Positions 9,419-28,834 of a stretch of 61,588 nucleotides of DNA are shown here, in pieces. The stretch is from Jiella sonneratiae. Lineage in GTDB: Bacteria; Pseudomonadota; Alphaproteobacteria; Rhizobiales; Rhizobiaceae. The stretch is from the NCBI RefSeq assembly GCF_017353515.1, contig NZ_JAFMPY010000028.1:1-61588 (forward strand), read 5' to 3'. The notes beneath the pieces are model-generated. The model had not been told where the DNA came from. It was given only the letters and a program-made list of their open reading frames with translations, and did not search any database. The translations under genes were made by a program, and so were the position numbers. How positions within the stretch are numbered: the stretch's first letter is position 1; each line of letters starts with the position of its first letter.

Positions 9419-9430
9419 ATTGCCGACAAT
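9419..9430. promoter_or_regulatory. Candidate GntR operator A (ATTGCCGACAAT)
   Basis: Relative to ATTGTNNACAAT, only the fifth base is changed. It lies in the 135-bp gap between the dehydrogenase gene and the GntR gene, about 90 bp upstream of the GntR start, suggesting an internal promoter with autoregulation. It is the weakest member of the set. Confidence 0.5.
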
Positions 9431-9464
9431 TCCTCCACCCTCCGTCGCTTCCGGCCGAGCGGCG

Positions 9465-10550
9465 TCACGCCGCCGCGGGACGGCCGATGCCGGCGAGGAT
9501 CGCCTCGACCATGTCGCGCTGGGTGCCGACGCCCCGGATGTCCCGCGTGCGGGATTCCGGCCGCGACAGGGCGTGGTCGACGCCGCGCCTGATCAGGGCG
9601 GCGGCCTCGACGGCGGCCGGCACCTCCCGCCGCCGACCCAGCCAGTCGAGCAGCATCCGCGTCGATTCGACCATCGCATAGGGGTTGGCGAGGCCCTTGC
9701 CGGCGATGTCCGGCGCCGAGCCGTGCGTCGCCTGGGCCATGGCGATGGCGCCGCGCCCGATGCACAGGCCCGGCGCCATGCCGAGGCCTCCGACGAGGCC
9801 GGCCGCCTCGTCGGTGAGGATGTCGCCGAACATGTTGGTGGTCACCACCACGTCGAAGGTCTGCGGGTCGCGCACGAGGCGCATCGCCATGGTGTCGACG
9901 ATCACCTCGTCGACGGCGACGTCGGGGAACTCGGCGGCGACCTCGTAGCAGCTGTCGACGAACATGCCGCAGCCAAGCTTGAAGACGGTGTTCTTGTGGA
10001 CGAGGGTCAGCCGCCTGCGGCGGGCGCGGGCGAGCTCCAGCGCGGCGCGGGCCACCTTGCGGCTGCCCTCGCGGCTGATCACCCGCACCGAGATCGTCAG
10101 GTCCTCCGTCGGCCGGAATTCGCCGGAGCCCATGACGACGTTGCGGTCCGGCTGAAAGCCCTCGTTGTTCTCGCGCACGATGACGAGGTCGATGTCGTCG
10201 CGCAGGCAGCCGATGTCGGGAAAGGAGCGGGTCGGCCGGACATTGGCGAAGAGGTCGAAATGCTTGCGCAGGATCGGGTGCGGATTGATGGCGCCCGGCA
10301 CCTTCGGATAGTCCCGGTGGCCGATCGGCCCGAGGATGAAGCCGTCGAGACGCGAGAGCGTCTCGAGCGTTCCCTCCGGCATGGTGTGGCCGAGCGTGTC
10401 GAGGGCGCGCCGGCCGATCGGCACCTCCGTCCATTCGATCGACAGGCCGGCGGCGCCGGCTGCCGCCCTGGCGATCTCGACGGAGGCCGGGACGATCTCG
10501 TGGCCGATGTCGTCGCCTTCGAGGATGCCGAGCTTGAGGGTCTCACTCAT
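9465..10550 (-). CDS. Isocitrate/isopropylmalate-family beta-decarboxylating dehydrogenase
   Basis: 361 aa from ATG 10550, preceded by GGAGCAG. The family oxidises and decarboxylates (2R,3S)-hydroxy acids with NAD(P) and a divalent metal. Visible landmarks are GDDIGHEIVPA near the N-terminus, the substrate-binding RPTRSFPD, VIVRENNEGFQ, the catalytic Lys in VHKNTVFKLGCGMF, the metal-binding Asp residues in DEVIVDTMAMRL and NMFGDILTDEAA, and the nucleotide-binding HGSAPDIAGKGLANP. It is not a close match to LeuB or Icd, so the substrate is unassigned. It lies 23 bp behind the second mmgE-like gene on the same strand, so the two products are likely consecutive enzymes. Confidence 0.88.
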   Translation of the reverse strand: MSETLKLGILEGDDIGHEIVPASVEIARAAAGAAGLSIEWTEVPIGRRALDTLGHTMPEGTLETLSRLDGFILGPIGHRDYPKVPGAINPHPILRKHFDLFANVRPTRSFPDIGCLRDDIDLVIVRENNEGFQPDRNVVMGSGEFRPTEDLTISVRVISREGSRKVARAALELARARRRRLTLVHKNTVFKLGCGMFVDSCYEVAAEFPDVAVDEVIVDTMAMRLVRDPQTFDVVVTTNMFGDILTDEAAGLVGGLGMAPGLCIGRGAIAMAQATHGSAPDIAGKGLANPYAMVESTRMLLDWLGRRREVPAAVEAAALIRRGVDHALSRPESRTRDIRGVGTQRDMVEAILAGIGRPAAA

Positions 10551-10573
10551 TCGTCGCTGCTCCTGTCCAAATT

Positions 10574-11944
10574 TCATTCTGCGGCGGAGCGGAGCTTGTC
10601 CGAGCGGGCCGCCCTCGCCACGTCGCCGGCGTCGCTCGCCGCCTCGATCGCCCAGGCTGCCGCGAGGATGCGCTCGGCATCGGCGGCGCCGACGACGAGT
10701 TCGGCCTGGCGCAGGAATTTCGTGTCGAGCATCTCGTTGCTGAGCGGCCGCTCGCGGCTGCCGATCGCCCGGTCGATCTCCTTCGTCATGGTCGAGCCGT
10801 CGTCGAAGGTGATTTCGATGACCACGGAGGCCTCGTGGATCCGCCGGTCGGCGGTCGCCCTGACCTTGTCGCGCAGCGCGACGACGGCGGGGTCGGCGAC
10901 AATCTCGTCGGTGAAGGCGGTCGGCGCGCCGTCGCCGTGGAGCAGCGCGCAGGCCGCGGCGTGGTAGACGCTGAACTTGCCTTCCAGGCCGGTCTTCGGG
11001 CTGGTCTTGCCGGTGAGTTCGAGGACCAGCGGATGGGCGGTGAGCTGGACCGACGCGATGGCGCCGACGCGCGCGCCGATCTCCTCGCGGATCTGCTGGC
11101 AGCCGTCGATGGTCGGATGGATGACGATCCCGCAGGCAAACGGCTTGTAGCTGTTCAGCGCGGCCTCCCAGCGGCTGCCGAGGTCGTCGAGGATCTCGCC
11201 GTAGTCCTGCTTGTCGGACATGACGTTGGCGAAGCCGCGCGGCGCCTCGATGCCGCGCAGCGAGGAATCGAAGCCGGCCTCGGCGAGGAGTGCCGACATC
11301 GCGCCGTTCTGCGCCGCGCGGCCGGGATGGAAGCTCTTCGTCATGGTGCCGAACATCTCGCGAAGGCCCGCCGACTGGCTGGCGGCGAGGCCCAGCGCCC
11401 ACTGCATCTTCGTCGCGTCGAGGCCGATGGCGTGGCCGACGGCCGCGGCCGCGCCGAACACGCCGGCCGTGCCGGTGATGTGCCAGCCGCGGTCGTAGTG
11501 ATCGGGGTAGACTGCGTTGCCGATCCGGCATTCCACCTCGATGCCGACCAGCATGGAGGTGATCAGCGCCCGCCCGCTCTGCGGCCGCGTCTCGGCGAGG
11601 GCGAGGAGGGCGGAGGCGACCGGTCCCGCCGGATGGATGATGGTCTTCAGATGCGTGTCGTCATAGTCGAGGACATGCGAGGAGATGCCGTTGACGAGCG
11701 CCGCGTGCATGGCGTCGAGCTTCTCGCTTCGCCCGAGCACGGTCGAGGTCTGGGGTCCCGAGAACGGCGCGACGCCGCGGATGGCGGCATCGACCGTCTC
11801 GTGGCTGGCGCCCCCGACGGCGCAGCCCAGCCAGTTGACGAAGGTGCGCACGCCTTCCTGACGCACGTCCTCGGCGATGTCGCCGTCCTTGACGGAAACG
11901 ATCCATTCGGCGAGGGCGCGGGTGACGGGAGGGGTAGTCATCAT
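10574..11944 (-). CDS. MmgE/PrpD family protein (second of four)
   Basis: 456 aa. It has the family's HVLDYDDTHLKTIIHPAG active-site segment, GTMTKSFHPGRAAQNG, and KPFACGIVIHPTIDGCQ. The DYDDTH form is closest to cis-aconitate decarboxylase/2-methylcitrate dehydratase-type sequences in general, but this cannot decide the reaction. The gene lies between an SDR gene upstream and a decarboxylating dehydrogenase gene 23 bp downstream on the same strand. ATG 11944 is followed directly by a second ATG (11941), either of which could be used. Regulation by the GntR operator at 14247 is inferred from operon position. Confidence 0.88.
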   Translation of the reverse strand: MMTTPPVTRALAEWIVSVKDGDIAEDVRQEGVRTFVNWLGCAVGGASHETVDAAIRGVAPFSGPQTSTVLGRSEKLDAMHAALVNGISSHVLDYDDTHLKTIIHPAGPVASALLALAETRPQSGRALITSMLVGIEVECRIGNAVYPDHYDRGWHITGTAGVFGAAAAVGHAIGLDATKMQWALGLAASQSAGLREMFGTMTKSFHPGRAAQNGAMSALLAEAGFDSSLRGIEAPRGFANVMSDKQDYGEILDDLGSRWEAALNSYKPFACGIVIHPTIDGCQQIREEIGARVGAIASVQLTAHPLVLELTGKTSPKTGLEGKFSVYHAAACALLHGDGAPTAFTDEIVADPAVVALRDKVRATADRRIHEASVVIEITFDDGSTMTKEIDRAIGSRERPLSNEMLDTKFLRQAELVVGAADAERILAAAWAIEAASDAGDVARAARSDKLRSAAE

Positions 11945-12004: not shown

Positions 12005-12796
12005 TCAGAGCAGGCCCTTGGCGATGCCGCCGTCGACGTTGATCGCCTGGCCGGTGACGTAGGCGGCGAGCGGGCTCGAGAGCCAGGTCACCATCACCGC
12101 CACCTCTTCCGGTTCGCCGAAGCGGCCGAGCGGGATCTCGCCGGAAAATTCCTTCAGGATCGTCTCGCGGTCGGTGCCGCGTTCGGCGGCCATGGCGTCG
12201 GCGCGCTTCGTCCAGAGCGGCGTCAGCGTGCGGCCGGGGGCGACGCAGTTGACCCGGATACCGTCGGCGGCGAACTCGCTGGCGAGCGTCTTGGTGAGGC
12301 CGAGCAGGCCGGCCTTGTGGACGTTGGAGACGACCTGGTGCTGATAGGGCATCTTCGAGGCCGCCGCACCGAGCGTGACGATGCTGGGCGCATGGCCGGC
12401 CCGCAGCAGCGGGGCGAGGGCGCGGATCGCCCGCACCGCCGACAGCACGTTGAAGGTGTAGTTGCCGAGCCAGTCCTCGTCGGAGAGGTCGGTGAAGGCG
12501 GAGCGGATCGAGCCGCCGACCGCGGAGACGAGGACGTCGAGGCCCGTCCACAGCCCTGCCGCCGCCGCCGCGATCGTTTCGCCGGCACCCGGCGCCGTGA
12601 CGTCGGCGACGACCGTCTCGGGCCGCCGGCCACCGGCCTTTTCGATCGCGTCGGCGGCCTCCTGCAGATTGTCGGCGCTGCGCGAGGCGATCAGGAGGTG
12701 GGCGCCTTCGCGCGCCATCTGCGTCGCCGCCGCGCGCCCGATGCCGTAGGTGCCGCCCACGACGACGACGCGCCGGCCCTCAAAGCCGAGATCCAT
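12005..12796 (-). CDS. Short-chain dehydrogenase/reductase-like protein lacking the usual catalytic Tyr
   Basis: 263 aa, Rossmann fold. The cofactor loop is GGTYGIG (residues about 14-20). The NNAG-equivalent region reads VSAVGGS, and the C-terminus VTGQAINVDGGIAKGL is typical of the family. At the active site, where SDRs have Y-x-x-x-K, this protein has SNVHKAGLLGLTKTLASEF: the lysine is present but the Tyr position is Ser. A normal oxidoreductase role is therefore uncertain. ATG 12796 follows GGGAGG and overlaps the end of the upstream AbrB-family gene by 17 bp, so the two are co-translated. A sister SDR sits beside the other AbrB gene (25105-25851). Confidence 0.85.
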   Translation of the reverse strand: MDLGFEGRRVVVVGGTYGIGRAAATQMAREGAHLLIASRSADNLQEAADAIEKAGGRRPETVVADVTAPGAGETIAAAAAGLWTGLDVLVSAVGGSIRSAFTDLSDEDWLGNYTFNVLSAVRAIRALAPLLRAGHAPSIVTLGAAASKMPYQHQVVSNVHKAGLLGLTKTLASEFAADGIRVNCVAPGRTLTPLWTKRADAMAAERGTDRETILKEFSGEIPLGRFGEPEEVAVMVTWLSSPLAAYVTGQAINVDGGIAKGLL

Positions 12797-14009
12797 CGCT
12801 GCCTCCCTGAAGCCTGGTGTAGATCTGGAAGACCGGCAGGATCGTCGACGAGACGATGGCGATCCGCATGATGTGGAAGGCGGTCACGAGCTCCGCATCG
12901 AGATGCAGATACTGCGCGGTCAGGACCATCTCGGTGACCGCCGCCGGCGCCAGCGCGAGAAAGCCGGTGGTATAGGGAAGCGACGTCGCAGCCGAAAGGG
13001 CGAAGGCGCCGATCGCGGCGGCCGAGATGAGGAGCGCGGCGATCACGACGCCGGCGGCGGCCACCCGCGGCAGGGTGACAATGATCTCGCGCTTGAACTG
13101 GCAGCCGAGCCAGGTGCCGATGGCGATCTGTGCGACGACGATCAGCGGCGAGGGGACGGCGAGACTGAGCATGCCGCTGGCGCTGAGGACGAGGCCGAGG
13201 AAGATCGGCCCGACCAGCCAGGGATTGGGCAGCGGCGTCGGCTTCAGGAGGCGCGCGACGCCATAGCCGGCGACCAGCGCGACGACCAGGAGGAGGCCGT
13301 TCCGGGTCATCTCGTCGGTATGCGGCGGGATCTGGCCGCTGGAGCCGAACATCACCGCCAGGATCGGAACCAGCGAGACCACGCCGGAGACGCGGAGCGC
13401 ATGGACGATGGCGACGGCATTGGGGTTGCCGCCCTTGTCCTTGGCGACGACCGCCATGTCGGCGACGCCGCCGGCGGCGGTCGCGAAGAAGGCGGTGACG
13501 ACGTCGACCCCCGCGAGACGGCGGAACAGGAAGGCCGCGAGCATGGTCACGACGATGACGTAGAGCGTCGCCGCCAGCATCGCCGGCAGCAGCGCCACCA
13601 TCGCGGCAAGAATCGCCGGCGTGAAGCGCATGCCGACCGCCAGGCCGATCGCCACCTGCCCGAGCTCGCGCCCCATCGGCAGGAACGCCAGCCGCACGCC
13701 GCAGGCGGAGACCGCGCCGCAGACGAAGAACGGTCCGAGCATCCAGGGCAGGGGCAGATGCGACAGCGTCGCGCCGTAGCCGGCGACCGTGGCGAGGGCG
13801 TAGGTCGCGACGATCCGCGGGCCGCCGCCGCCGGCGCGCCAGGGCGCCGCGAGCCAGCGGATCGGCCGTCTGGCGCCGGCTCGCCCCGTATCGCTGCGCT
13901 CCTCGCCGCGCGGGATCCGCCGGTCGGAGGCGAGCCGCCCGGCCGACCGGATGGCGGACGCCCCGCACGGAGCCGACGGCTGGCTGTCCTGCATGACGGG
14001 TTCCGTCAT
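12780..14009 (-). CDS. AbrB-family integral membrane protein (PF05145 type)
   Basis: 409 aa, with about ten hydrophobic segments arranged as two similar halves. These are the AbrB duplication units: the first around GYGATLSHLPLPWMLGPFF, the second around GYGVARLLKPTPLPNPWLVG. The repeated PWxxGP and GxxxGxxFK elements are typical. Older annotations call these ammonia-monooxygenase-like or AbrB regulators; a membrane transport role is more plausible from topology, but function is unproven. An Arg-rich N-terminal extension of ~55 residues precedes the first helix, so a later start is possible. First gene of the minus-strand catabolic operon; operator B lies about 240 bp upstream. Confidence 0.82.
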   Translation of the reverse strand: MTEPVMQDSQPSAPCGASAIRSAGRLASDRRIPRGEERSDTGRAGARRPIRWLAAPWRAGGGGPRIVATYALATVAGYGATLSHLPLPWMLGPFFVCGAVSACGVRLAFLPMGRELGQVAIGLAVGMRFTPAILAAMVALLPAMLAATLYVIVVTMLAAFLFRRLAGVDVVTAFFATAAGGVADMAVVAKDKGGNPNAVAIVHALRVSGVVSLVPILAVMFGSSGQIPPHTDEMTRNGLLLVVALVAGYGVARLLKPTPLPNPWLVGPIFLGLVLSASGMLSLAVPSPLIVVAQIAIGTWLGCQFKREIIVTLPRVAAAGVVIAALLISAAAIGAFALSAATSLPYTTGFLALAPAAVTEMVLTAQYLHLDAELVTAFHIMRIAIVSSTILPVFQIYTRLQGGSDGSRL

Positions 14010-14246
14010 GGGGCCGAAGAGGCAAAGCCGGCCGCACGCGCCGCGCGGTGCCGGAGCGCGGGGTCGCCGGACGAGGCGGCCGGTCGATCCTCACCCCGCG
14101 ACAGGACGGCTGCGGGCGCGAAGGCCAGGCACGTCGCGATCCTTGGAGCGGGGTGGTCAGACATCTTGCGGCGGCACCTTTCGTCGAGATTCGTCGCGGC
14201 CGGGCAGGGACCCGCGCTTCCAATCTATAAAGCGACGGGCTCGAAA

Positions 14247-14258
14247 ATTGTCAACAGA
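14247..14258. promoter_or_regulatory. Candidate GntR operator B (ATTGTCAACAGA)
   Basis: Left half ATTGT is perfect and the right half ACAGA differs from ACAAT at its last two bases. Read on the minus strand it contains TTGACA, facing the AbrB-SDR-mmgE operon. Confidence 0.6.
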
Positions 14259-14381
14259 TGGCAGATGCGATCCGACCTGCCGGCTTGCCGAGCTGAATTT
14301 GAGCGATCTGCCGGCCGTTTGGCGGTGGCGGCTGCGATCGTGCGGCCTGCGGCAAAGGCATCGCGACGGCTCGACCTGAAG

Positions 14382-14393
14382 ATTGTTGACAAT
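14382..14393. promoter_or_regulatory. Candidate GntR operator C (ATTGTTGACAAT)
   Basis: Perfect 5-2-5 inverted repeat, ATTGT-TG-ACAAT, 80 bp upstream of the tctC start codon. It contains TTGACA on the plus strand, so a bound repressor could occlude a -35 box. Confidence 0.7.
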
Positions 14394-14472: not shown

Positions 14473-15471
14473 ATGTCCACGAAATTCACGCGCCGCCAAG
14501 CGCTGCGTCTCGCAGCCGGGAGTGGGCTCGCCGCGACTGCACTCGCCGCCCCGCGGATCGCCCGTGCGCAGTCGTCCTATCCGGAACAGCCGATCAACGT
14601 CGTGGTGCCGTTCGACACCGGCGGCTACAACGACCGCCTCGCACGCGCCTTCACGCCGTTCCTGCAGGAGCGGCTCGGCCAGCCGCTGGTCGTGGTCAAT
14701 CGCGGCGGCGCGGGCGCGCTGCTCGGCCACACCTATTTCCTGCAGCAGCCCGACGACGGCTACACGATCCTCTGCACCTCGGCGGCGCCCTACATGCCGC
14801 TGAACATCCTGTTGCAGGGCGCGCAGTTCAAGATTTCCGACTTCCAGATGATCAACCTGCCGTCGCGCGACTATACGCTGATGGCAACTGAGGCGGGCAG
14901 CGAGCTGAAGTCGGTCGACGACGTCATCGCCAAGCTCAAGGCAGATCCCTCGAGCCTCAGCATCGGCGTCCAGCCGGCCTCGGCGGACCTCGTCAATCTG
15001 ATGCTGTGGGCCGACGCGAACGGCATTTCCCGCGACGGGCTGCGCATCGTGACCTATGACGGCGGCGGCCCCGCCCGCAACGCCGCGGCCGGCGGCGTCG
15101 TCGACATCGGCCTCGTCGGCGGTGAGGGCTTCCTGCCGCTCGCCGAAAAGATCCGGCCGCTGCTGATCTTCGATTCCGAAAAGCGCGACAACTGGGACGC
15201 CCCGAATTCGGGCGAACGCGGCGTCAGCAAGTCGGTCTCCGGCTCGCAGCGCGGCTGGGCTGTCCATGCCAGCATGAAGGAGAGCCACCCCGACCGCTAC
15301 GAGATCCTGGTGAAGGCGATCGAGGAGACCTCCAAGGATCCGAAGGTCGTCGAGTCGCTGACCAAGCAGCAGCTCGCGACCGAGTGGTACGGCCCGGAGG
15401 CGTCGCAGGAATCGCTGCGCCAGACCGCCGAGGTCATGGAGCAGCACGTCGATCTCCTGAAGGGCGCCTGA
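14473..15471 (+). CDS. tctC: Tripartite tricarboxylate transporter substrate-binding protein TctC (system 1)
   Basis: 332 aa. A twin-arginine export signal is visible, FTRRQALRLAAGSGLAATAL with cleavage after RAQ, so the protein is probably exported folded to the periplasm. The mature part begins YPEQPINVVVPFDTGGYNDR, the TctC-family strand and carboxylate-binding loop, followed by VVVNRGGAGALLG and PDDGYTILCTS. It would bind an organic acid and deliver it to TctAB. ATG 14473 has GGAGGAG upstream at 14464-14470. It is the first gene of tctCBA, under operator C. The ligand cannot be predicted; the sister protein at 20503 is only distantly similar, suggesting a different ligand. Confidence 0.92.
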   Translation: MSTKFTRRQALRLAAGSGLAATALAAPRIARAQSSYPEQPINVVVPFDTGGYNDRLARAFTPFLQERLGQPLVVVNRGGAGALLGHTYFLQQPDDGYTILCTSAAPYMPLNILLQGAQFKISDFQMINLPSRDYTLMATEAGSELKSVDDVIAKLKADPSSLSIGVQPASADLVNLMLWADANGISRDGLRIVTYDGGGPARNAAAGGVVDIGLVGGEGFLPLAEKIRPLLIFDSEKRDNWDAPNSGERGVSKSVSGSQRGWAVHASMKESHPDRYEILVKAIEETSKDPKVVESLTKQQLATEWYGPEASQESLRQTAEVMEQHVDLLKGA

Positions 15472-15491
15472 CGGCCCGCGAGAGCGATCCG

Positions 15492-15522
15492 GAACGCCGC
15501 GCCTTTTCAGGGCGCGGCGTTC
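15492..15522 (+). terminator. Intra-operon hairpin between tctC and tctB
   Basis: GAACGCCGCGCC (15492-15503) pairs with GGCGCGGCGTTC (15511-15522) around a 7-base loop. There is no following T-run, so it more likely attenuates or protects the tctC mRNA end than fully terminates. This would let the binding protein be made in excess over the membrane subunits. Confidence 0.6.
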
Positions 15523-15552
15523 AACTCATTCTCGATCCGGAGACAAGGTCTC

Positions 15553-16044
15553 ATGCGCAGCGGCATCCGCCGAGGTCCCGTCGACTGGGGGCACCTCGCC
15601 TTTCTCGCCTTCATTTCCGTCGTCGTCATCGCCTATCTCTTCGATGCACGCGGCGTCTCGCTGAAAATCAACAATCTGCTTCTCGTCGAACCGGCCGCGA
15701 TCATCGCGCTCGTCCTCGTCGCCTGCGTCCTGCCGCAGTGCTTCAGGCGGCGCGACGCGGAGCCTTCGGCGCCGGCAGAGGCGCCCGCCGAGGACGAGCG
15801 CGTGAAGGTTCGGCACGAACTCCTGCGCGTCGGCGCGCTCGCCGCGCTGCTCGGCGTCTTCAGCTTCTTCCTTGAGCAGATCGGCTTCGACGTCGCGACC
15901 TTCCTGTTCATCGCGATCGGGGTGGTCATCTGCGGCGAGAGGCGCCCGCTGGTGATCCTCGCCTTCGCCGCCGCCTTCACCGTCTTCGTCGTCTACGGCT
16001 ACAGCACGCTCGTGCCCTATCCGTTCCCCATGCGGATTCTCTGA
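15553..16044 (+). CDS. tctB: Tripartite tricarboxylate transporter small membrane subunit TctB (system 1)
   Basis: 163 aa with four predicted membrane helices: LAFLAFISVVVIAYLF, AAIIALVLVACVL, a segment around LAALLGVFSFFLEQIGFDVATFLF, and LVILAFAAAFTVFVVYGYS. This is the TctB pattern, with a charged cytoplasmic loop after the second helix (residues about 65-95). It partners TctA and TctC to import an organic acid using the ion gradient. The gene lies 10 bp before tctA. Sequence conservation in TctB is low in general, so identification rests mainly on size, topology and position. Confidence 0.88.
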   Translation: MRSGIRRGPVDWGHLAFLAFISVVVIAYLFDARGVSLKINNLLLVEPAAIIALVLVACVLPQCFRRRDAEPSAPAEAPAEDERVKVRHELLRVGALAALLGVFSFFLEQIGFDVATFLFIAIGVVICGERRPLVILAFAAAFTVFVVYGYSTLVPYPFPMRIL

Positions 16045-16054
16045 GGGCCCCGCC

Positions 16055-17578
16055 ATGCTCGAATTCGATGCGATCCATTCCGCCTTCGGCCTGCTGACGA
16101 GTTCATGGGAGGCCTGGATCTGGGTGCTTCCGGGCCTGCTGGTCGGCCTGTTCTTCGGGGCGATGCCCGGCATCTCGATCACCATGGCGATGGCGATCTT
16201 CCTGCCGCTCACGCTCTACATGGACTTCCTGCCGGCGATCATCTTCCTGACCTCGATCTACACCGGGGCGGGCTTCGGCGGCTCGGTTCCGGCAATCCTG
16301 ATGAACATTCCCGGCACCTCCTCGGCGGTCGCCACCACCTTCGACGGCTATCCGATGGCCCGGCAGGGGCGCCACAACGAGGCGCTGGGCGTCGCGCTGG
16401 CCGCCTCGGTCATCGGCACCCTGTCGAGCTACGTGCTTCTGGCCTTCCTGATCGCCCCCGTGTCCGCGGTGGTCCTCAAGATGGGCCCGCTCGAAATGTT
16501 CGTCGTCGCGATCTGGGGGATGCTGCTGCTCGGCTCCCTGGCCGGCAGCTCGATCCCGCGCGGCCTGCTGGCGGGCGTCTTCGGCGTGCTGCTCGGCACG
16601 ATCGGCATGAACACTGCCGGCTTCATCCGCGGCACAATGGGCGTTCCGTGGCTGCTCGACGGGGTGCCGACGATCCCGGCGATGATGGGGCTCCTCGCCG
16701 CGAGCCAGCTTCTCAACCTCGTCAACGTCAACTATCTCATCGAGGACGAAAGCTCGCGCACCCTCAGTTTCGGCCGCATCGTCAGCGGCGTCCGGCTGGC
16801 GCTCCGCTACCCCACCATCATCGCGAGGGGTTCTATCGTCGGCGTGCTGGTCGGGGCGGTGCCCGGCGTCGGCTCGTCGATCTCGAACCTGATCTCCTAT
16901 TCCGAAGCCAAGCGCAACGCCGACGACGGCGACACCTTCGGCCAGGGCAATCCGAAGGGCGTGATCGCCGCCGAATCCGCCAATTCGAGCTCGGAAGGCG
17001 GGGCGATGGCGACGATGCTCGCCCTCGGCATTCCGGGCGGCGGCGCCACCGCCATCCTTCTCGCCGCCTTTGCCATGCACAACATCGTCGGCGGGCCGAG
17101 CTTCATCGGCCAGAACAAGGACATCGTCTACGCGATCATCTTCTCGAACTTCGCCCAGGCGGTGCTGCTTCTCGTCGTCGGCCTCGGCTTCGTCTTCCTG
17201 GCGAGTTCGATCGTCCGCGTGCCGCTGCGCTTCCTCATTCCGAGCGTTCTCGTCGTCTCGGTGTTCGGCAGCTACGCCCTCACGGGCTCGGCCTCCGGGC
17301 CGATCACTTTGTTCCTGTTCGCCGTCATCGGCTGGGTGATGCTGCGCTACGACTATCCCGTCGCCGCGACCGTCGTCGGGCTGCTGCTCGGCCGGCTGCT
17401 GGAGACGAATCTCCTGCGCAGCTGGCAGATCAGCGGCGGCGACGTCGGCTACGTGCTGGAGCGGCCCGGCGCGGCGGCGATCCTCGCCCTGATGCTCCTG
17501 TCGATCGGGCTGACGGCGCTGTCGCGCTACAGGCGGCGGCGCCGGATGGCGGCCGTGACGCCGGAGGTGGCCTCGTGA
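16055..17578 (+). CDS. tctA: Tripartite tricarboxylate transporter large permease TctA (system 1)
   Basis: 507 aa, highly hydrophobic with about twelve helices. Family motifs are clear: GLFFGAMPGISITMAMAIF, GSVPAILMNIPGTSSAVATT followed by DGYPMARQG, and the second half's GAVPGVGSSISNLISYSEAK. These are the internally repeated glycine/proline loops thought to form the transport site. It ends the tctCBA operon, and a strong convergent terminator hairpin follows at 17621-17651. It would be driven by the proton or sodium gradient. Confidence 0.95.
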   Translation: MLEFDAIHSAFGLLTSSWEAWIWVLPGLLVGLFFGAMPGISITMAMAIFLPLTLYMDFLPAIIFLTSIYTGAGFGGSVPAILMNIPGTSSAVATTFDGYPMARQGRHNEALGVALAASVIGTLSSYVLLAFLIAPVSAVVLKMGPLEMFVVAIWGMLLLGSLAGSSIPRGLLAGVFGVLLGTIGMNTAGFIRGTMGVPWLLDGVPTIPAMMGLLAASQLLNLVNVNYLIEDESSRTLSFGRIVSGVRLALRYPTIIARGSIVGVLVGAVPGVGSSISNLISYSEAKRNADDGDTFGQGNPKGVIAAESANSSSEGGAMATMLALGIPGGGATAILLAAFAMHNIVGGPSFIGQNKDIVYAIIFSNFAQAVLLLVVGLGFVFLASSIVRVPLRFLIPSVLVVSVFGSYALTGSASGPITLFLFAVIGWVMLRYDYPVAATVVGLLLGRLLETNLLRSWQISGGDVGYVLERPGAAAILALMLLSIGLTALSRYRRRRRMAAVTPEVAS

Positions 17579-20274: not shown

Positions 20275-20288
20275 CCTGAGCCCTCCTG

Positions 20289-20420: not shown

Positions 20421-20502
20421 ATCGCGGTCTCGCCGGAGATTGCCGCCATCGGGACGGGGCGGTTCTTGCGGCCGCCCCGGTCGGGAAAAAGGGAGGATCA
20501 TC

Positions 20503-21450: not shown

Positions 21451-21643
21451 AGCGCCGGCTCGGCGGGGCCGGCGGGACCGGCGCGTCCGGCGGGGCGCCG
21501 GGGAGGGCGCACGGCGGGAGCGGGCTCCCGTCCGGTGCGGCGGGGCCTTGCGGCATGCGCGGGCGGCCCCGCCTTCCGACCCCCCGCGGGCGGCCGGCCG
21601 GGCGGGGTCTGCGCGACGAGACGTTTTTGCGAAGGGGCGGGAC

Positions 21644-22138
21644 GTGGCCAATCGACGTGATCTCATCGGCGGGCTCGCCGCCATCGCGATCGGCGCGGGC
21701 TATCTGTCGATGGCGCTGGAGATCCGGCACAGCGCCCTCGACGATGCCGTCGGCCCTGCCGGCCTGCCGAAGGTGCTGGCCTTTCTGATGATCGGCCTTG
21801 GCGCGATCCTCTGCGTCAAGGCGGCGCTCGCCGGCGGGCCGGCGAGGCCCGCCGGCCCGGTTTCCGACGAGGCGGCGACTGCCGAGGCGACGGGTATCCG
21901 CTTTTCCGGCATCGCGAGGGCCGGGGGCCTGCTCGCCATCGCCGCCGCCTATCTCCTCGTCGTCCACCCGCTCGGCTACCTGCCGAGTATCTTCATGCTC
22001 CTCGTCGCGGCGTCCCTCTACGGCGGGGCGGCGCTCACCTGGCGGGTCTTCGCCATCGGCGCGGGCGGTGCCGTCTTCTACTGGCTTCTCTTCGTCCAAC
22101 TCCTCGGCATTCCGCTGCCTCCCGGCATTCTCGGCTGA
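21644..22138 (+). CDS. tctB: Tripartite tricarboxylate transporter small membrane subunit TctB (system 2)
   Basis: 164 aa from GTG 21644, preceded by GAAGGGGCGGG. There are four predicted helices: LIGGLAAIAIGAGYLSMAL, LPKVLAFLMIGLGAILCV, a region around GGLLAIAAAYLLVVHPLGYL, and AIGAGGAVFYWLLFVQLLGI. The loop DAVGPAGLPK after helix 1 is typical of TctB. It lies 12 bp before tctA. The preceding ~190 bp after tctC is very GC-rich with several possible hairpins but no gene, so tctC mRNA is probably more abundant than tctBA. Confidence 0.88.
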   Translation: MANRRDLIGGLAAIAIGAGYLSMALEIRHSALDDAVGPAGLPKVLAFLMIGLGAILCVKAALAGGPARPAGPVSDEAATAEATGIRFSGIARAGGLLAIAAAYLLVVHPLGYLPSIFMLLVAASLYGGAALTWRVFAIGAGGAVFYWLLFVQLLGIPLPPGILG

Positions 22139-22150
22139 ACCGGCGTTCTC

Positions 22151-23662
22151 ATGGCAATGTTCTCGCAAGCTCTCGACGTCCTTCTGACGACGCCGGCCGT
22201 CTTCTTCGCCATCATCGGCGTCGCCTGGGGCATTCTCGGCGGCGCCTTGCCGGGCCTGTCGCCGTCGATCACGATGGCGCTCCTCCTGCCCTTCACCTAC
22301 AGCCTCGATCCGGCATCGGCGATCGTCCTCCTCGCCGCCACCTACATCGGCGCCGAATACGGCGGCTCGATCCCCGCCATCCTGATCCGCACGCCCGGCA
22401 CCAACGCCGCGGCGGCGACGGTGATCGACGGCTTCGAGATGAACCGCCAGGGCAAGGCCGGCCTCGCCCTCGGCATCTCGCTCTATTCCGGCGTGATCGG
22501 CAGCCTCATCGGCCTGGTGATGCTGGTGGCGCTGAGCGAGCCGCTGTCGGCGGTGGCGCTGTCGTTTCGCCCGCCTTCCTATTTCGCCCTCGGCATCCTC
22601 GGCCTCAGCGTCATCGCCTCCCTGTCCGGCGGGTCGCTGGTGAAGGGGCTGATCGCCGCGGTCCTTGGCCTGATGGTCGCGACCATCGGGACCGATCCGG
22701 TGACCGGCGGCAACCGCTTCACCTTCGGCACCGCCGATCTTCTCGCCGGGGTCGAGCCCGTCTTGATCATGGTCGGCCTCTTCGCGGTCAGCGAGCTGTT
22801 CGTCCAGACCGCCGAACAGGGCGGCCAGATCCGGGTCGAGAGCCGGGCCCGCATCGAATTTCCGGGGATCGCGCTCGCCCGGCGCCTCGTGCCGGCGCAG
22901 ATCATCGGCAGCATCATCGGGACCTTCGAGGGCGTCATGCCCGGCGCCGGCGGCACCGTCGCCTCCTTCATGTCCTACAACGAGGCGCGGCGCTGGTCGC
23001 GGCACAAGGAAGAGTTCGGCAACGGCTCGCCGGAGGGTGTCGCCGCTCCGGAGACCGCCAACAACACCGTCGCGGCGACGGCGATCATCCCGCTTCTCTC
23101 CTTCGGCATCCCGGGCTCGAATTCGACCGCGGTCCTGCTCGGCGGCTTCCTGATCCACGGCATCACCGTCGGGCCGATGATCTTCGTCAAGTCGGCCTCG
23201 ACCGTCTACGGCCTCTATGGCGGCATGCTCGTCGCCTCGATCGCGCTGTTGTTCATCGGCATGGCGATGATGGGGCCGTGCATCTGGCTGGTGAACCGGC
23301 CGCGCGCCTATCTCAACGCCTTCATCCTTGCGCTGATCTTTTCCGGCGTCTTCTCGATCCACCAGAGCCTGTTCGACCTCGTCCTCGTCCTCATCGCCGG
23401 CGTCGTCGGCTTTGCGATGCGGATGCTGAAGTTCCCCTTCCTGCCGACCGTCCTCGGCCTCGTCCTCGGCTATCTCATCGAGAGCAACTACCGGCGCTCG
23501 CTGGTCCTGTCGGGCGGCGACCATTCGATCTTCCTCGAGGACCCGATCGCCGTCGGCTTCCTCGCGGTCGCTGCCGTCTTCGTCATCGGATCGCTTCTGC
23601 AGCCGGCTCTCGCCGCATGGCGCAGCCGCAGGCGCGGCGAGATACGGGACGTGCGCGGCTGA
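22151..23662 (+). CDS. tctA: Tripartite tricarboxylate transporter large permease TctA (system 2)
   Basis: 503 aa, with about twelve membrane helices. Repeated motifs GGALPGLSPSITMALLLPF, GSIPAILIRTPGTNAAAAT, DGFEMNRQGKAG and, in the second half, GVMPGAGGTVASFMSYNEAR mark a TctA permease. It shares only motif-level similarity with the TctA of system 1, so the two systems are old paralogues rather than a recent duplication. An mmgE-like gene follows 34 bp downstream on the same strand, linking uptake directly to catabolism. Confidence 0.95.
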   Translation: MAMFSQALDVLLTTPAVFFAIIGVAWGILGGALPGLSPSITMALLLPFTYSLDPASAIVLLAATYIGAEYGGSIPAILIRTPGTNAAAATVIDGFEMNRQGKAGLALGISLYSGVIGSLIGLVMLVALSEPLSAVALSFRPPSYFALGILGLSVIASLSGGSLVKGLIAAVLGLMVATIGTDPVTGGNRFTFGTADLLAGVEPVLIMVGLFAVSELFVQTAEQGGQIRVESRARIEFPGIALARRLVPAQIIGSIIGTFEGVMPGAGGTVASFMSYNEARRWSRHKEEFGNGSPEGVAAPETANNTVAATAIIPLLSFGIPGSNSTAVLLGGFLIHGITVGPMIFVKSASTVYGLYGGMLVASIALLFIGMAMMGPCIWLVNRPRAYLNAFILALIFSGVFSIHQSLFDLVLVLIAGVVGFAMRMLKFPFLPTVLGLVLGYLIESNYRRSLVLSGGDHSIFLEDPIAVGFLAVAAVFVIGSLLQPALAAWRSRRRGEIRDVRG

Positions 23663-23696: not shown

Positions 23697-25061
23697 ATGA
23701 GCGATGCGAGCCTTTCCATGCGCCTCGCCGAATGGGGCGCCGGACTTCGTCCCGCCGACGTTCCACGCGAGATGGCCGAGACCGTCGAGCGCATCCTCGT
23801 CGACGTCACCGGCCTCTGCCTCGCCGCCCGCGACACCGACTATGTCGGTGCGACCCTTGCGGCGGCTGAAACCGGCGCGCACGTCGCCATCGGCCACCGC
23901 CGCTGGCTGACCGCCGCCGATGCGGCGCTCGTCAACGGCACCGCCGCGCATGGCGAGGATTTCGACGACACCTTCGAAGGCGGGCCCGTCCATTCGGGGG
24001 CCGTCGTCGTTCCCGCCGTGCTGGCGATCGCCGAGCGCGAGGACCTGCCGGGCGAGCGCGTCGCGCTCGGGCTTGCGGCCGGGATCGAGCTTCTCTGCCG
24101 CCTCGGCCTCGCCGCCCCGAAGGCGATCCACCGGGCGGGATTTCACCCGACGGCCGTCCTCGGCGCGCTGGCTTCCGCCTTCGCCGTGGGCGTTGCGACC
24201 GGCACCAACGCCAAGGGGCTGGCGAACGGTCTCGGGATTGCCGGATCCACGGCGTCGGGGATCATCGAATATCTCGGCGACGGAAGCTGGACCAAGCGCA
24301 TGCACGCCGGCTGGTCGGCCCAGGCGGGCATGCGCGCCGCGCTGCTCGGGCGCGCCGGCTTCGTCGGGCCGAAGGCGGTGCTCGAGGGCGAGCACGGCTT
24401 CTTCAAGGCCTTCGCCCCCTCCATCGAGCCTCTCGTCGGCAAGATGATGGACGGGCTCGGCAGCCGCTGGGTGGGGGAGGGCATCACCTTCAAGCCCTAT
24501 CCCTGCGGCACCATGGTGCAGCCCTATATCGACTGCGCGATGAAGCTCAGGGCGGACGGCATCGAGGTCGGGCGCATCGCCCGCATCCACTGCCTGACCT
24601 CCGACGGCTACGTCCACCGCCTGTGGGAGCCGATCGCGCTGAAGCGCCGGCCGCCGACCGACTATGCGGCGAAGTTCAGCCTGCCCTTCGGCATCGCGCT
24701 GGGGCTCCTGCGCGGGACGGCGGGGCTTCGGGACTTTTCGCCCGAGGCGATCGCCGATCCGGCGCTGCTCGACCTTGCCGGGCGCGTTACCTACGAGATC
24801 GATCCGAAAGATCCCTATCCGGCCCGCTTCACCGGCCACGTCCGGGTCGAACTCGACGACGGCTCGGTCCGCGAGGTGCGGCAGGATCACATCCGCGGCG
24901 GCGTCGAGGCGCCGCTGTCGCGCGGCGACATCGAGGAAAAGTTCGCCGCCAATGCCCGTTACGGCGGGATCGAGGATCCGGACGCCTTCCTCGCCGCCGC
25001 GACCGCCGTGCTCGGCTCGGCGGCGAGCCGGACGGCGATCGCCCGCCTCGCCGTCGCCTGA
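23697..25061 (+). CDS. MmgE/PrpD family protein (third of four)
   Basis: 454 aa. Family signatures are HGEDFDDTFEGGPVHSGAV, GSWTKRMHAGWSAQAG and KPYPCGTMVQPYIDCAM. Two features set it apart from the other three homologues here: the first motif ends in Thr-Phe instead of Thr-His/Gln, and the GxxxH position in KPxxxG of the others is Gln (MVQP). It is therefore likely to act on a different substrate or catalyse a different reaction. It is the fourth gene of the tctCBA-mmgE-SDR-abrB operon, 34 bp after tctA; GGAG(A) precedes the ATG. Confidence 0.88.
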   Translation: MSDASLSMRLAEWGAGLRPADVPREMAETVERILVDVTGLCLAARDTDYVGATLAAAETGAHVAIGHRRWLTAADAALVNGTAAHGEDFDDTFEGGPVHSGAVVVPAVLAIAEREDLPGERVALGLAAGIELLCRLGLAAPKAIHRAGFHPTAVLGALASAFAVGVATGTNAKGLANGLGIAGSTASGIIEYLGDGSWTKRMHAGWSAQAGMRAALLGRAGFVGPKAVLEGEHGFFKAFAPSIEPLVGKMMDGLGSRWVGEGITFKPYPCGTMVQPYIDCAMKLRADGIEVGRIARIHCLTSDGYVHRLWEPIALKRRPPTDYAAKFSLPFGIALGLLRGTAGLRDFSPEAIADPALLDLAGRVTYEIDPKDPYPARFTGHVRVELDDGSVREVRQDHIRGGVEAPLSRGDIEEKFAANARYGGIEDPDAFLAAATAVLGSAASRTAIARLAVA

Positions 25062-25104
25062 GCCAATCCGCGGCACCCTGCCGCCAACAGGAGGAGTTAC
25101 AGCC

Positions 25105-25851
25105 ATGTCGGGACAGTCGCTCGCCGGCCGGGTCGCGCTCGTCACCGGTGCGTCGCGCAACATCGGGCGGGAGATCGCCCGCGCCTTCGCCCGCGAGGGC
25201 GCCGCCGTCCTCGTCCATGCCGCCCGCGACCTCGATGCGGCGAAGGAGACGGTCGCCGCCGTCGAGGCCGAGGGCGCCCGAGGCCTTGCCGTCGTCGCCG
25301 ACCTCGCGGACCCGAAGAGCGCCGCGATCCTTGCCGAGGCGGCGGGCGAGCGGTTCGGCCGGCTCGACGTCCTCGTCAACAACGCCGCGATCCGCCCGGA
25401 AGCGACGATCGACGATCTGACCTACGAGGACTGGCGGCAGGTCATGGCGGTCAATCTCGACAGCGCCTTTCTCGTCACCAAGGCGGTCCTGCCGCTGCTG
25501 CGGAAAGGGGAGGCGGCGGCCATCTGCAACATCGGCGGGCTGACCGGCCACACCGGCGCGCCCCACCGGGCGCATGTGATCGCCGCCAAGGCGGGGCTCG
25601 TCGGGCTCACCAAGGCGCTCGCCCACGAACTCTCGCCGCAGGGAATCACGGTCAACTGCGTCTCGCCCGGTCTCGTCGACACGCGGCGGGCGGGCGGGGC
25701 GCCGAAACATCACGACAGCCGCACCAATCTCGTCGGCCGGCGGGGCGGCGCCGACGAGATCGCCGCCGCGGTCCTCTATCTCTGCGGGCCCGGCGCCCGT
25801 TACGTGACCGGCGAGACGCTGCACGTCAACGGCGGCGCCTATCTGTCGTGA
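25105..25851 (+). CDS. SDR-family protein with altered active site
   Basis: 248 aa from ATG 25105, with GAGGAG 9 bp upstream. The cofactor loop is VTGASRNIGREIA, the structural motif is VNNAAIRPEA, and the C-terminus YVTGETLHVNGGAYLS is standard. At the catalytic position the sequence reads RAHVIAAKAGLVGLTKALAHE: the Lys is kept but the residue four before it is Val, not Tyr. A standard SDR redox mechanism is therefore doubtful. Its stop overlaps the GTG start of the AbrB-family gene (GTGA). The same SDR-AbrB pairing occurs on the other side of the locus. Confidence 0.86.
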   Translation: MSGQSLAGRVALVTGASRNIGREIARAFAREGAAVLVHAARDLDAAKETVAAVEAEGARGLAVVADLADPKSAAILAEAAGERFGRLDVLVNNAAIRPEATIDDLTYEDWRQVMAVNLDSAFLVTKAVLPLLRKGEAAAICNIGGLTGHTGAPHRAHVIAAKAGLVGLTKALAHELSPQGITVNCVSPGLVDTRRAGGAPKHHDSRTNLVGRRGGADEIAAAVLYLCGPGARYVTGETLHVNGGAYLS

Positions 25852-26888
25852 CGCCCCGCGCCGGCCTCCGGCTCTCGGGCGGGCTCGTCTCGGCAGCACT
25901 CGTCGGGATCGCCTTCCATCTGCTCGGCCTTCCGCTCGCCTGGATCTTCGGATCGATGCTCGGTTCGGCGGTCTACGCCAACTGCGTTCCGGGGATCGGC
26001 CGAACCCATCTCATCCGCCGCGCCGGCCAGCTTCTGATCGGCTCGTCCGTCGCCTCGGTTCTCGACGTCGCGACGATCCGCGACGTCGCCGGCTATCTGC
26101 CGGCGATGGTCGCCGCGGCGGTGGCCTCCAACGCCGTCGGTGTCCTGCTCGCCTTGCCGCTCGCCCGTCTCGCGGGCGTCGACAGGCTGAGCGCGCTGCT
26201 TGCCGCACTGCCGGCGGGCATGTCGGAAATGGCGTCGCTGGCGGCCGATCTCGGCGCGCGGGCCGACTTCGTCATGGTGGCGCATTCGCTGCGCGTCGTC
26301 CTCGTGGTGCTGACGGTGCCGGTGCTGATCGGCCTCGACCGCTCGGGCGCGCCGCTGCCAGCCGGGCCGGCGGGCGGAAGCGTCGAGGCGCTGGTCGCCT
26401 GCCTTCTTCTCGGCAGCCTCCTCGCATACGGCGCGAGCCGGATGAATCTCCTCAATCCGTGGATCATCATGCCGATGAGCGTCGGCGTCGCTCTGGTGCT
26501 CGCCGGCTTCCAGCTCGCGGCGATGCCGTCGCCGCTCCTTGCCGCAGCCCAGATCGCCATCGGCTTCTCCCTCGGCACCCGGCTGAAGCGCGAGGACCTG
26601 ACGCGGCTGCCGCGCGCCACCCTGGCGGGGCTCGCGGCGAGCCTTGCTCTCGTCGCCGCGATGATGGTGCTCGCAGCCTTCGTCATGCCGGGCCTGACCG
26701 GCCTCGGTTTCTCCTCCCTGGCGCTGGCGATGGCACCCGGCGGCCTCGGCGAGATGATCGCGACGGCCAAGGCGCTCGGCCTCGCATCGGCGCTCGTCGC
26801 GAGCTTCCAGTTCGTGCGCTCCTTCATGACCAATCTGCTCGCGCCGCTGATCATCCTGAAGCTCGTCGGCCGCGACCGCGGATCGTGA
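25848..26888 (+). CDS. AbrB-family integral membrane protein, second copy
   Basis: 346 aa from a GTG overlapping the SDR stop by 4 bp, so translation is coupled. It has about ten hydrophobic segments in two similar halves: LPLAWIFGSMLGSAVYA early, and NLLNPWIIMPMSVGVALVL in the second half. The SEMASLAADLGARADFVMVAH and GEMIATAKALGLASALVASFQ segments are the paired signatures of this family. It lacks the Arg-rich N-terminal extension of the copy at 12780. A transport or channel function is inferred from topology and from its place next to TctA; nothing is proven for the family. It ends the plus-strand operon, 83 bp before a strong hairpin. Confidence 0.82.
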   Translation: MTPRAGLRLSGGLVSAALVGIAFHLLGLPLAWIFGSMLGSAVYANCVPGIGRTHLIRRAGQLLIGSSVASVLDVATIRDVAGYLPAMVAAAVASNAVGVLLALPLARLAGVDRLSALLAALPAGMSEMASLAADLGARADFVMVAHSLRVVLVVLTVPVLIGLDRSGAPLPAGPAGGSVEALVACLLLGSLLAYGASRMNLLNPWIIMPMSVGVALVLAGFQLAAMPSPLLAAAQIAIGFSLGTRLKREDLTRLPRATLAGLAASLALVAAMMVLAAFVMPGLTGLGFSSLALAMAPGGLGEMIATAKALGLASALVASFQFVRSFMTNLLAPLIILKLVGRDRGS

Positions 26889-27129: not shown

Positions 27130-28566
27130 TCAGGCGGCGAGCGCCGCCGCGAGCCTGCCGAGATCGGCCATGTCGTCGAGCGAGGCCACCATGTCGACGA
27201 TCGCCTCGCTCTTGTCCTTCGGCCAGCGGGCGAACTCGGCGCAGCCGCGGAACTTGTCGGCGGCCTCGCCATAGGTCATCGGATTGGCCGGCGAGCCCTT
27301 GCCGAAATCGGCCCGGCCCTCGATCGTCCGGCCGTCCTCGAGCGTCACCTTGATGATCGTCGTCATCTTGGCGTAGCCGGCGGCCTCCGCCTCCGGATGG
27401 ACGTGGAAGTTGACGCGTTTGATCATCGCCTGGACGTCCTCGCGCAGCACCGTCTCGTCGGTGAATTCCGGCAGGTTGGCCCGCCCGTCGAGAAGCAGGA
27501 TCGCCATGCAGAATTCCATCGAGAACTTCGCCTGCAGCTCGTTCTTCGGCTGGTGGTGGATCAGCGCGTTCAGCATGTTGTGGTTGGTGCCGACATCGAC
27601 GCTCGCCACCTCCTGCGCCTTGATGCCGTGCTCGCGGATGAGTTCCAGCATCTCGGTCATGCCGGGATGGGTGAGTGAGCCGGAGGGGTGCGGCTTGATC
27701 GAGACGCCCGGATCCGCGAAGCTCCACGGGTTGCCGAGCTTGCCGCGAATGGCGTTGAGGTCGTAGCCGCCGCCATGGGCCTGGAAGAAGCCGCGCGGCG
27801 CCTCGAGGATCTTGTCGGTGGCGCTCCAGCCGAGCCCGGCGAGGTCGCAGGCGACGACGCCGGCTTCCGACGACCGGCCGGCATGGAACGGCTTGGTCAT
27901 GGTGCCGAAGTTCTCCCGCAGCCCGGCGCTCTGGCTGCCGGCGATCGACAGCGCGCGCTGCAGCGTCTCGCGGTCGAAGCCGCGCAGCCGCCCCGCCGCC
28001 GAGGCCGCCGCGAAGGTGCCGCAGGTGGCGGTGGCGTGGAAGCCGTGCTGGTAGTGGCGGGGCGAGATCGCCTCGGCGATCTTGCACTCGACGTCGACGC
28101 CGACGAGATAGGCCGCCAGCATGTCGCGGCCCGTCAGCCCGCGCAGTTCGGCTTCGGCGAAGGCGGCCGGCAGGCAGGGTGCCGTCGGATGGGTGAGGAG
28201 GCCGTAGACCCGGTCCTCGGCGACGGCGAGCTGGGTGTCGTCGTAGTCGTCGGCGTGGATCCCGACGCCGTTGGCGAAGGCGGCGAAGCGCGCCGGCGCC
28301 TTCATCGCCGTGCCGATGACGGTGGCCCCGCCCTTGCCGGCGACGTCGGCGAGATGCTGCTGGACGTAGCGGCCCGACATCGCGACGGACCCCGACAGAG
28401 CGAGACCGAACCCGTCCAGGATCGACTTCTTGGCAAGGTCGATCACCGCCGCCGGGATCGCGTCATAGGTCGTGTCGAGCACGAACTCGGCGACCTCGGC
28501 GGTGAGGCCGGCGCCGATGGACGGATCGCTCTGCGGCGTGAAATGGGTCGGGCTGCGCTGTTCCAT
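27130..28566 (-). CDS. MmgE/PrpD family protein (fourth of four)
   Basis: 478 aa from ATG 28566. Motifs are HADDYDDTQLAVAEDRVYG with LLTHPTAP downstream, GTMTKPFHAGRSSEAG and KPHPSGSLTHPGMTEML. The DDTQLA and LTHP forms match the first homologue (6888-8366), so these two are probably closest paralogues with related substrates. The gene is monocistronic as far as can be seen. Operator F lies about 100 bp upstream, and on its strand contains TTGACA. An 18-bp gap and a structured repeat follow its stop. A carboxylate dehydratase, epimerase or decarboxylase activity is possible from the family. Confidence 0.88.
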   Translation of the reverse strand: MEQRSPTHFTPQSDPSIGAGLTAEVAEFVLDTTYDAIPAAVIDLAKKSILDGFGLALSGSVAMSGRYVQQHLADVAGKGGATVIGTAMKAPARFAAFANGVGIHADDYDDTQLAVAEDRVYGLLTHPTAPCLPAAFAEAELRGLTGRDMLAAYLVGVDVECKIAEAISPRHYQHGFHATATCGTFAAASAAGRLRGFDRETLQRALSIAGSQSAGLRENFGTMTKPFHAGRSSEAGVVACDLAGLGWSATDKILEAPRGFFQAHGGGYDLNAIRGKLGNPWSFADPGVSIKPHPSGSLTHPGMTEMLELIREHGIKAQEVASVDVGTNHNMLNALIHHQPKNELQAKFSMEFCMAILLLDGRANLPEFTDETVLREDVQAMIKRVNFHVHPEAEAAGYAKMTTIIKVTLEDGRTIEGRADFGKGSPANPMTYGEAADKFRGCAEFARWPKDKSEAIVDMVASLDDMADLGRLAAALAA

Positions 28567-28666
28567 CGTCTGTCGAAGATCCCGTCTTGACGGCGGCGGG
28601 CGGCAAAGCGTGGCGCCGGTCCGCAGCCGTCGTTGCAATGCAGGCAGCTAGCGCGGCTTTTCGTCT

Positions 28667-28678
28667 ATTGTCAACAAT
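28667..28678. promoter_or_regulatory. Candidate GntR operator F (ATTGTCAACAAT)
   Basis: Perfect 5-2-5 inverted repeat, 101 bp upstream of the fourth mmgE-like gene; the minus strand reads ATTGTTGACAAT. Confidence 0.72.
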
Positions 28679-28822
28679 TCGGCCGGGCGACGGGTCGTCA
28701 CGCCGAGGCCGCTGCCTTCGTTGAAAGCCCAGCGGAAGGCGCCGACGCGGCTTGCCGCAGGTGCCCGCCCTGCCGGGCCTTAAACCTGGAACCGCATCGG
28801 CGGCAAATTCGCAATTCCCCCG

Positions 28823-28834
28823 ATTGTCAACAAT
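28823..28834. promoter_or_regulatory. Candidate GntR operator G (ATTGTCAACAAT)
   Basis: Identical to site F, 87 bp upstream of the tartrate-dehydrogenase-like gene. Confidence 0.72.

Follow-up and report, generated by a model that had tools for sequence, protein, structure and literature searches.

Which regulator acts at the short palindrome that recurs ahead of the genes of a carboxylate locus in Jiella sonneratiae? The locus lies in a stretch of 61,588 nucleotides (contig NZ_JAFMPY010000028.1 of assembly GCF_017353515.1, positions 1 to 61,588), which we analyzed at its full length and call the window. Among its genes is gntR (8625 to 9329, minus strand), which encodes a regulator of 234 amino acids. 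A preliminary description had listed seven candidate sites, found by eye, and had read them as a local regulon of this GntR protein. We propose, with a probability of about 0.85, that all seven sites serve as operators for the resident GntR, a protein of the FCD and VanR type, and that they form one inducible, autoregulated local regulon. The regulon would comprise two tripartite tricarboxylate (Tct) transporters, two AbrB proteins, three MmgE/PrpD enzymes, dehydrogenases, and a dehalogenase-type hydrolase (Abh). We read it as a local regulon because the palindrome accompanies this GntR across genera, sits before gntR, and recurs at the promoters of the same targets in homologous loci.

Palindromic sites in the locus and in the genome

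All seven sites were confirmed, both in their letters and in their coordinates. The candidate operator before gntR, ATTGCCGACAAT (9419 to 9430, minus strand), has its centre 95.5 bp from the start codon and may serve autoregulation. In the next divergent region, ATTGTCAACAGA (14247 to 14258, minus strand) faces the AbrB1-SDR1-MmgE2-IsoDH1 operon, with its centre 243.5 bp from the AbrB1 start, and ATTGTTGACAAT (14382 to 14393, plus strand), which contains TTGACA, faces tctC1B1A1, with its centre 85.5 bp from the start codon. The site before Abh, ATTGTTGACAGA (20289 to 20300, minus strand), lies 14 bases ahead of the chosen GTG, has its centre 20.5 bp away, and adjoins a Shine-Dalgarno-like AGGAGG. 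Its partner facing tctC2 (20402 to 20420, plus strand) consists of the core ATTGTCGACACT, centred 95.5 bp from the start, and an outer half-box ACA (20416 to 20418). The last two sites are copies of ATTGTCAACAAT. One of them (28667 to 28678, minus strand) faces MmgE4 and has TTGACA on the minus strand, with its centre 106.5 bp from the chosen ATG, and the other (28823 to 28834, plus strand) precedes IsoDH2-PdxA, with its centre 92.5 bp from the start codon. At five of the seven sites, the centre is thus 85 to 107 bp ahead of the start codon, the exceptions being Abh and AbrB1; the GTG of Abh and the ATG of MmgE4 are starts of our choice.

The distances within the three pairs were 135, 113, and 156 bp, in agreement with the 113 to 156 bp given before. 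The pairs in the divergent regions are real, but two sites per region is not the rule. The rule is one operator per promoter, and the pairs follow from divergent promoters that each have their own operator. The "overlapping pair" at 20402 to 20420 proved to be something else, because the core continues into TTGACAAT, ending at 20420, without a second full palindrome; what lies there is an outer half-box, 7 bp away from the core. In relatives, a half-box TGT at this distance was present at 29 of 142 flanks, while no offset from -20 to -6 gave more than 4 of 142. GntR sites with extra half-boxes 7 to 12 nucleotides from the centre are described in parts of PMC4494728.

We then counted the motif in the genome of the stretch (5,151,348 bases, coded G000). 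The exact palindrome ATTGTYRACAAT occurs at three places, all three in the window (1.7e-6 under random placement), and ATTGTYRACA occurs at 10 places (13 strand hits), six of them in the window (6e-10 under random placement). The reversed controls gave no place for the former and one strand hit for the latter. Sites with at most one mismatch were found at 21 places, with five in the window, against one for the reversed control. Within the window, ATTGTTGACAAT at up to three mismatches gave 25 strand hits, where 8.0 (standard deviation, 3.6) were expected, and none of 100 shuffles reached 25. All these chance figures are biased, because the motif was derived from the same sites. The preliminary description had named a motif common outside the locus as grounds for refuting its reading; this objection fails in this genome, where the exact palindrome is confined to the locus.

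Four of the ATTGTYRACA places lie outside the window. Three are within predicted open reading frames (ORFs), and one is in the gap that separates the genes for a sugar-binding protein and a ROK regulator. The site at the latter place, GTTGTCAACAAT (G000:C8:56826-56837), is probably an unrelated operator. The intergenic 10-mer (G000:C8:56828) was rejected as a regulon member because its neighbours are sugar-uptake and ROK genes.

Features of the regulator

The gntR product matches the GntR winged helix-turn-helix domain PF00392 (60.5 bits; cut-off, 27) and the FCD domain PF07729 (86.6 bits; cut-off, 24.3). By these domain criteria, it is an FCD-type GntR of the FadR subfamily. The AlphaFold model has a mean predicted local distance difference test (pLDDT) score of 85.3, and its predicted effector-domain helices span residues 88 to 112, 115 to 133, 137 to 153, 158 to 172, 184 to 200, and 204 to 232. 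In the model, there are thus six effector helices, as in the VanR group, and not the seven of the FadR group; a helix of four residues (177 to 180) with low pLDDT was left out of this count. PhnR_burk (TIGR03338) was considered as the identity of the regulator and rejected, because the score of 221.2 bits is below the curated cut-off of 271.5. The sites themselves look like GntR-type operators: phylogenetic footprinting points to TTGT-N2-ACAA, which has the GT/AC core with a spacing in the range of 2 to 3 nucleotides.

The predicted model had fold matches to PmiR, Atu1419, 7u5q, and TM0439. The best phmmer match in the PDB was PmiR of Pseudomonas aeruginosa (7xp0; 6e-18), which is 25 to 26% identical to the regulator in the fold alignment. 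We take PmiR (PDB 7xp0 and 7xp1) to be the same protein as PrpR, which is discussed below. PmiR reportedly senses 2-methylisocitrate.

Conservation of the motif with related GntR genes

The comparison with relatives is the independent test of the motif, since the genome counts use the sites that the motif came from. We did a motif-blind count of all palindromes with 5-bp arms and gaps of 0 to 8 in about 300 bp upstream of 80 GntR genes. They come from one genome collection, in which 460 loci with a GntR relative were confirmed and the best 80 of the 460 were used (the 80 loci). ATTGT-N2-ACAAT ranked first, at 16 of the 80 loci, and 20 shuffles never gave more than 3. ACTGT-N2-ACAGT ranked second, at 9 of the 80. 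The 80 loci contained 38 exact sites and 118 sites with at most one mismatch, whereas the reversed pattern gave 0 and 2, and four other scrambled palindromes gave 0 to 1 exact sites and 4 to 31 with at most one mismatch. Five of 129 sites fell within homologous genes. Around 22 less related FCD regulators, two sites with at most one mismatch were found in 77 kb of surroundings.

Sister regulators at loci L071, L074, L097, L100, and L101 and at L094, L116, L118, and L122 have ACTGT-N2-ACAGT or AGTGT-N2-ACACT upstream, and L069 and L074 each have two operator types. These palindromes could help to map specificity residues.

A close relative of the regulator (E value of at most 1e-60) was present in 19 of 394 genomes of the family, its own included. 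The locus was mapped in 25 sequences, including the window, and a promoter was scored as having a site if one with at most one mismatch, or with two mismatches and an intact TGT/ACA core, lay at most 400 bp upstream. A start behind a same-strand gap of less than 80 bp was classed as operon internal. The promoter counts should not be taken as independent, since the 25 sequences are related, some being of the same genus, and since a single site between divergent genes may be scored for both of them.

Sites were found at 16 of 16 Abh promoters, 19 of 20 tctC1 promoters, and 23 of 25 gntR promoters (21/23 plus 2/2). The site noted earlier upstream of the GntR/FCD gene, ATTGCCGACAAT in the window, is one of these 23. 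At other genes, the site went with the transcription-unit start: MmgE4 had it at 18 of 18 such starts and at none of 2 behind a same-strand gene (18/20 in total), tctC2 at 15 of 15 and none of 2 (15/17 in total), and IsoDH2 at 4 of 5 and none of 11. Rhod had no site (0/16, with all 16 gaps at least 80 bp), nor did MmgE1 (0/14, with 10 of the 14 gaps at least 80 bp). Operon-internal starts were also free of sites (0/147), which is a weak control because their gaps are short. Among starts that were not internal, 102 of 190 had the motif, whereas its reversed form was found at 5 of 190 and two scrambled forms at 0 and 1. Genome G032, though it has no exact copy, has site variants at the same promoters.

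The link between motif and GntR across genera supports the local regulon of the preliminary description. That regulon had counted four MmgE/PrpD enzymes, of which three are covered; the fourth, MmgE1, would at most be read through from gntR.

Weighing of the alternatives

Several results weigh against the proposal. A site with at most one mismatch lay within 600 bp upstream of the GntR gene in 34 of the 80 loci and was missing there in 46, and 22 of the 80 had no such site in their stretch. Some neighbourhoods carry ACTGT or AGTGT palindromes instead, and the gntR genes of G596 and L065 have no site. Of 101 genomes, counting that of the stretch, 65 have the exact palindrome, and in most of these 65 no close relative of this GntR was found; genomes G020 and G032 contain a close relative but no exact copy. 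The promoter boxes add to this. The -10 signal is weak. In two-sided regions, TTGACA points toward the nearer gene in only 22 of 37, but in all 14 listed MmgE4-tctC1 pairs the left site has TGTC and the right site has TGTTGACA. Window sites 20289 and 28823 depart from this pattern, with TTGACA directed away from the assigned gene, and the hexamer is absent at 9419 and in the 20402 core.

Exact copies also lie beside more distant FCD genes (for example, at G084:C24 and G066:C49), and by sequence the palindrome is an operator class common to FCD regulators, not one diagnostic for this GntR. Another FCD regulator of the genome could then bind the sites, alone or together with the resident one. 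The genome has 23 FCD matches (22 above the cut-off), and the closest paralogue, which is 33% identical, has ATTGTATACGAT. However, that is the one site with at most one mismatch near any of the other 22 matches, none of which has an exact site nearby. The exact sites are confined to the locus, and in relatives the motif follows the GntR genes of this clade and is kept at their own promoters, so we regard a different FCD binder as improbable. The nearest paralogue lies at G000:C14 near 387004-387372, with ATTGTATACGAT upstream, and cross-talk is possible. We give even less credence to the idea that the motif represents strong -35 boxes (TTGACA) and no operator at all. It is true that ATTGTTGACAAT holds the consensus -35 hexamer, often facing the gene. 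However, both arms are kept at promoters without TTGACA, as ATTGTCTACAAT at Abh and ATTGCCTACAAT at gntR. In addition, the ATTG arm would be superfluous in a -35 box, and exact palindromes are missing elsewhere in the genome.

It is also possible, if rather doubtful, that the paired operators act jointly, with a VanR-type tetramer looping the DNA between them as in Atu1419. The six-helix VanR-type model and its fold match to Atu1419 fit such looping. The pair distances were at first in phase (R = 0.53 at 10.5 bp, n = 18, p = 0.005), and a control with intergenic lengths was negative. However, two later pairs, at 131 and 174 bp, were out of phase; p then ranged from 0.008 to 0.18 depending on the treatment of related pairs, and with distinct distances alone it had been 0.07 even before these two were added. 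We therefore do not claim that the pairs are in helical phase. In 12 of the 25 sequences, moreover, about 1.2 kb separates the site of Abh from that of tctC2, and a promoter of its own for each site explains the pairs without cooperation. The 25 operator pairs of the window and its relatives show distances that weakly favour a period of 10.4 to 10.7 bp, which the two later pairs broke.

Under the proposal of a single regulon of the resident GntR, a GntR dimer would bind ATTGT-N2-ACAAT ahead of gntR and at all other promoters of the locus. At several of them, a -35-like TTGACA lies within the palindrome or overlaps it, and at Abh the palindrome is next to the ribosome-binding site; binding would most likely block RNA polymerase. 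In favour of the proposal, TTGACA faces the gene at 25 of the 31 one-sided sites that contain it, and -10-like matches peak, if weakly, 17 bp downstream: TAnnnT was found with this spacer in 8 of 74 cases and in at most 3 of 74 with each of the 21 other spacers. A carboxylate, either imported or made by the pathway, would most likely release GntR.

Genes of the locus

The locus contains two parallel modules, each with a TctCBA transporter, a short-chain dehydrogenase (SDR), an AbrB membrane protein, and MmgE/PrpD enzymes. It also encodes two isocitrate-type dehydrogenases, a PdxA-like protein, a DUF1932 dehydrogenase, a rhodanese-type protein, and an alpha/beta hydrolase. Behind gntR lies MmgE1 (6888 to 8366, minus strand), an MmgE/PrpD gene by domain search and without its own operator. 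The next four genes, all on the minus strand, are IsoDH1 (9465 to 10550), an isocitrate/isopropylmalate-type dehydrogenase whose best solved match is homoisocitrate dehydrogenase; MmgE2 (10574 to 11944); SDR1 (12005 to 12796); and AbrB1 (12780 to 14009), an AbrB-duplication membrane protein. Domain searches identified these last three, as well as the first transporter, tctC1-tctB1-tctA1 (14473 to 17578, plus strand), and the second, tctC2-tctB2-tctA2 (20503 to 23662, plus strand), behind which MmgE3, SDR2, and AbrB2 (23697 to 26888, plus strand) follow in the same direction. Between the transporters are Rhod (17690 to 19060, minus strand), a rhodanese-type gene behind Abh without its own operator, and Abh itself (19300 to 20274, minus strand). 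The right end holds MmgE4 (27130 to 28566, minus strand), an MmgE/PrpD gene whose best solved match is IDS-epimerase, and IsoDH2, the PdxA-like gene, and the DUF1932 dehydrogenase gene (28921 to 32107, plus strand), the last after a 170-bp gap without a site.

IsoDH2 scored 559.8 bits to tartrate dehydrogenase TIGR02089, above the curated cut-off of 470.4, and by this score it is a member of the tartrate dehydrogenase family. In the domain searches and comparisons with solved structures, MmgE2, MmgE3, and MmgE4 were similar to cis-aconitate decarboxylase and IDS-epimerase. Abh is of the fluoroacetate-dehalogenase type. It aligned to fluoroacetate dehalogenases over most of its length and retained HDRGAR, YHWFF, and a late GH; its PDB matches include dehalogenases (E values, 5e-77 and 5e-73), with Alr0039 as the best match (4e-79).

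Our guess is that the substrate of the locus is a substituted di- or tricarboxylate. An unlikely but more far-reaching extension is that the operators delimit a catabolic pathway, not yet described, in which di- or tricarboxylates with an alpha substituent (halo-, epoxy-, or amino-) are broken down, with a VanR-type tetramer able to bridge the paired operators in helical register. If this were true, one switch would control both Tct importers, the MmgE/PrpD proteins as isomerases or dehydratases, the dehydrogenases of the tartrate and isocitrate types, and the hydrolase of the fluoroacetate-dehalogenase type. The regulon proposal would provide an uncharacterised regulator with its operator and target genes, group about twenty genes as one inducible unit, and turn the question of the substrate into a simple induction test. 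Its interest lies in the unexplored pathway that is delimited, more than in the regulation itself.

Evolution of the locus

Homologous loci exist in several alphaproteobacterial genera. G1159 is the closest copy (tctC1, 83%); its gene order agrees over the stretch compared, and five of its sites are at the same places, three of them with identical letters, including the one at 9419. MmgE4 heads the AbrB1 operon, across from tctC1, in 16 of the 25 sequences. Its place in the window and in G685 is opposite IsoDH2, where it has its own site pair. A search of the long AbrB1 leader (14010 to 14260) for remains of MmgE4 gave only short, weak hits, and we claim no scar. At the related loci L066 and L067, which have two different GntR genes, the second GntR has its own outward site pair opposite IsoDH2.

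Four of the cases with Abh and tctC2 sites about 1.2 kb apart were opened, and each had a plus-direction ORF of 369 to 402 codons between the sites. This extra gene lies between Abh and tctC2 in G099, G705, G564, and G534, with a site on either side, and is absent from the window (20275 to 20502) and from G1159. One such ORF, checked with Pfam, encodes an MR_MLE (enolase superfamily) protein.

Outward site pairs at 89 to 149 bp were found at 13 places in 12 of 397 genomes of the order, compared with 2 for the reversed control; of these 13, only the places in G000 and G381 fall in known copies of the locus. A TctC1 search at the class level found our genome alone among 385.

Comparison with known systems

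In a limited literature search, we found no paper that combines several of the gene families of the locus, and within that search the gene set seems undescribed. A text search for the palindrome returned no title on a GntR operator among the matches listed. The abstract, passages, and three sections of Suvorova 2015 (PMC4494728) do not name this orthologous group. The same parts describe FadR-subfamily divergons with double sites in which one site lies near each divergent operon, as in the pairs here.

According to parts of PMC7797058, Atu1419 of Agrobacterium fabrum is a VanR-type FCD repressor that forms a tetramer and loops 190 bp between two palindromes. It resembles the system here in its six-helix effector domain and in having two palindromes in a divergent region; the citrate seen in its pocket is a further parallel. 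It differs in its operator, ATGTATACAT, and in its regulon, which concerns hydroxycinnamic acids.

Another close parallel is PrpR (PA0797) of P. aeruginosa, also an FCD-type GntR, which parts of PMC9765439 describe as a repressor of the 2-methylcitrate operon on the evidence of gel shifts of the upstream region and a gene deletion. Its operator, ATTGTCGACAAT, is a predicted, footprinted 12-bp palindrome with the same arms as the operator here, and it lies 84 bp upstream of its own gene, where the centre of the gntR site is 95.5 bp away. The central two bases are CG in PrpR and mostly TG or CA here; the YR centre varies. PrpR controls an operon with a PrpD enzyme, and the locus here likewise has PrpD-family genes. 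In contrast to PrpR, control of prpC and prpB was not found here, no citrate-synthase or lyase domain was present among the 30 ORFs scanned around the locus, and the sites serve seven promoters in one locus. By analogy, the regulator would work like PrpR but is not to be filed as PrpR. The comparison suggests that PrpD-family clusters with no part in the methylcitrate cycle also make use of the 12-bp operator of the PrpR type.

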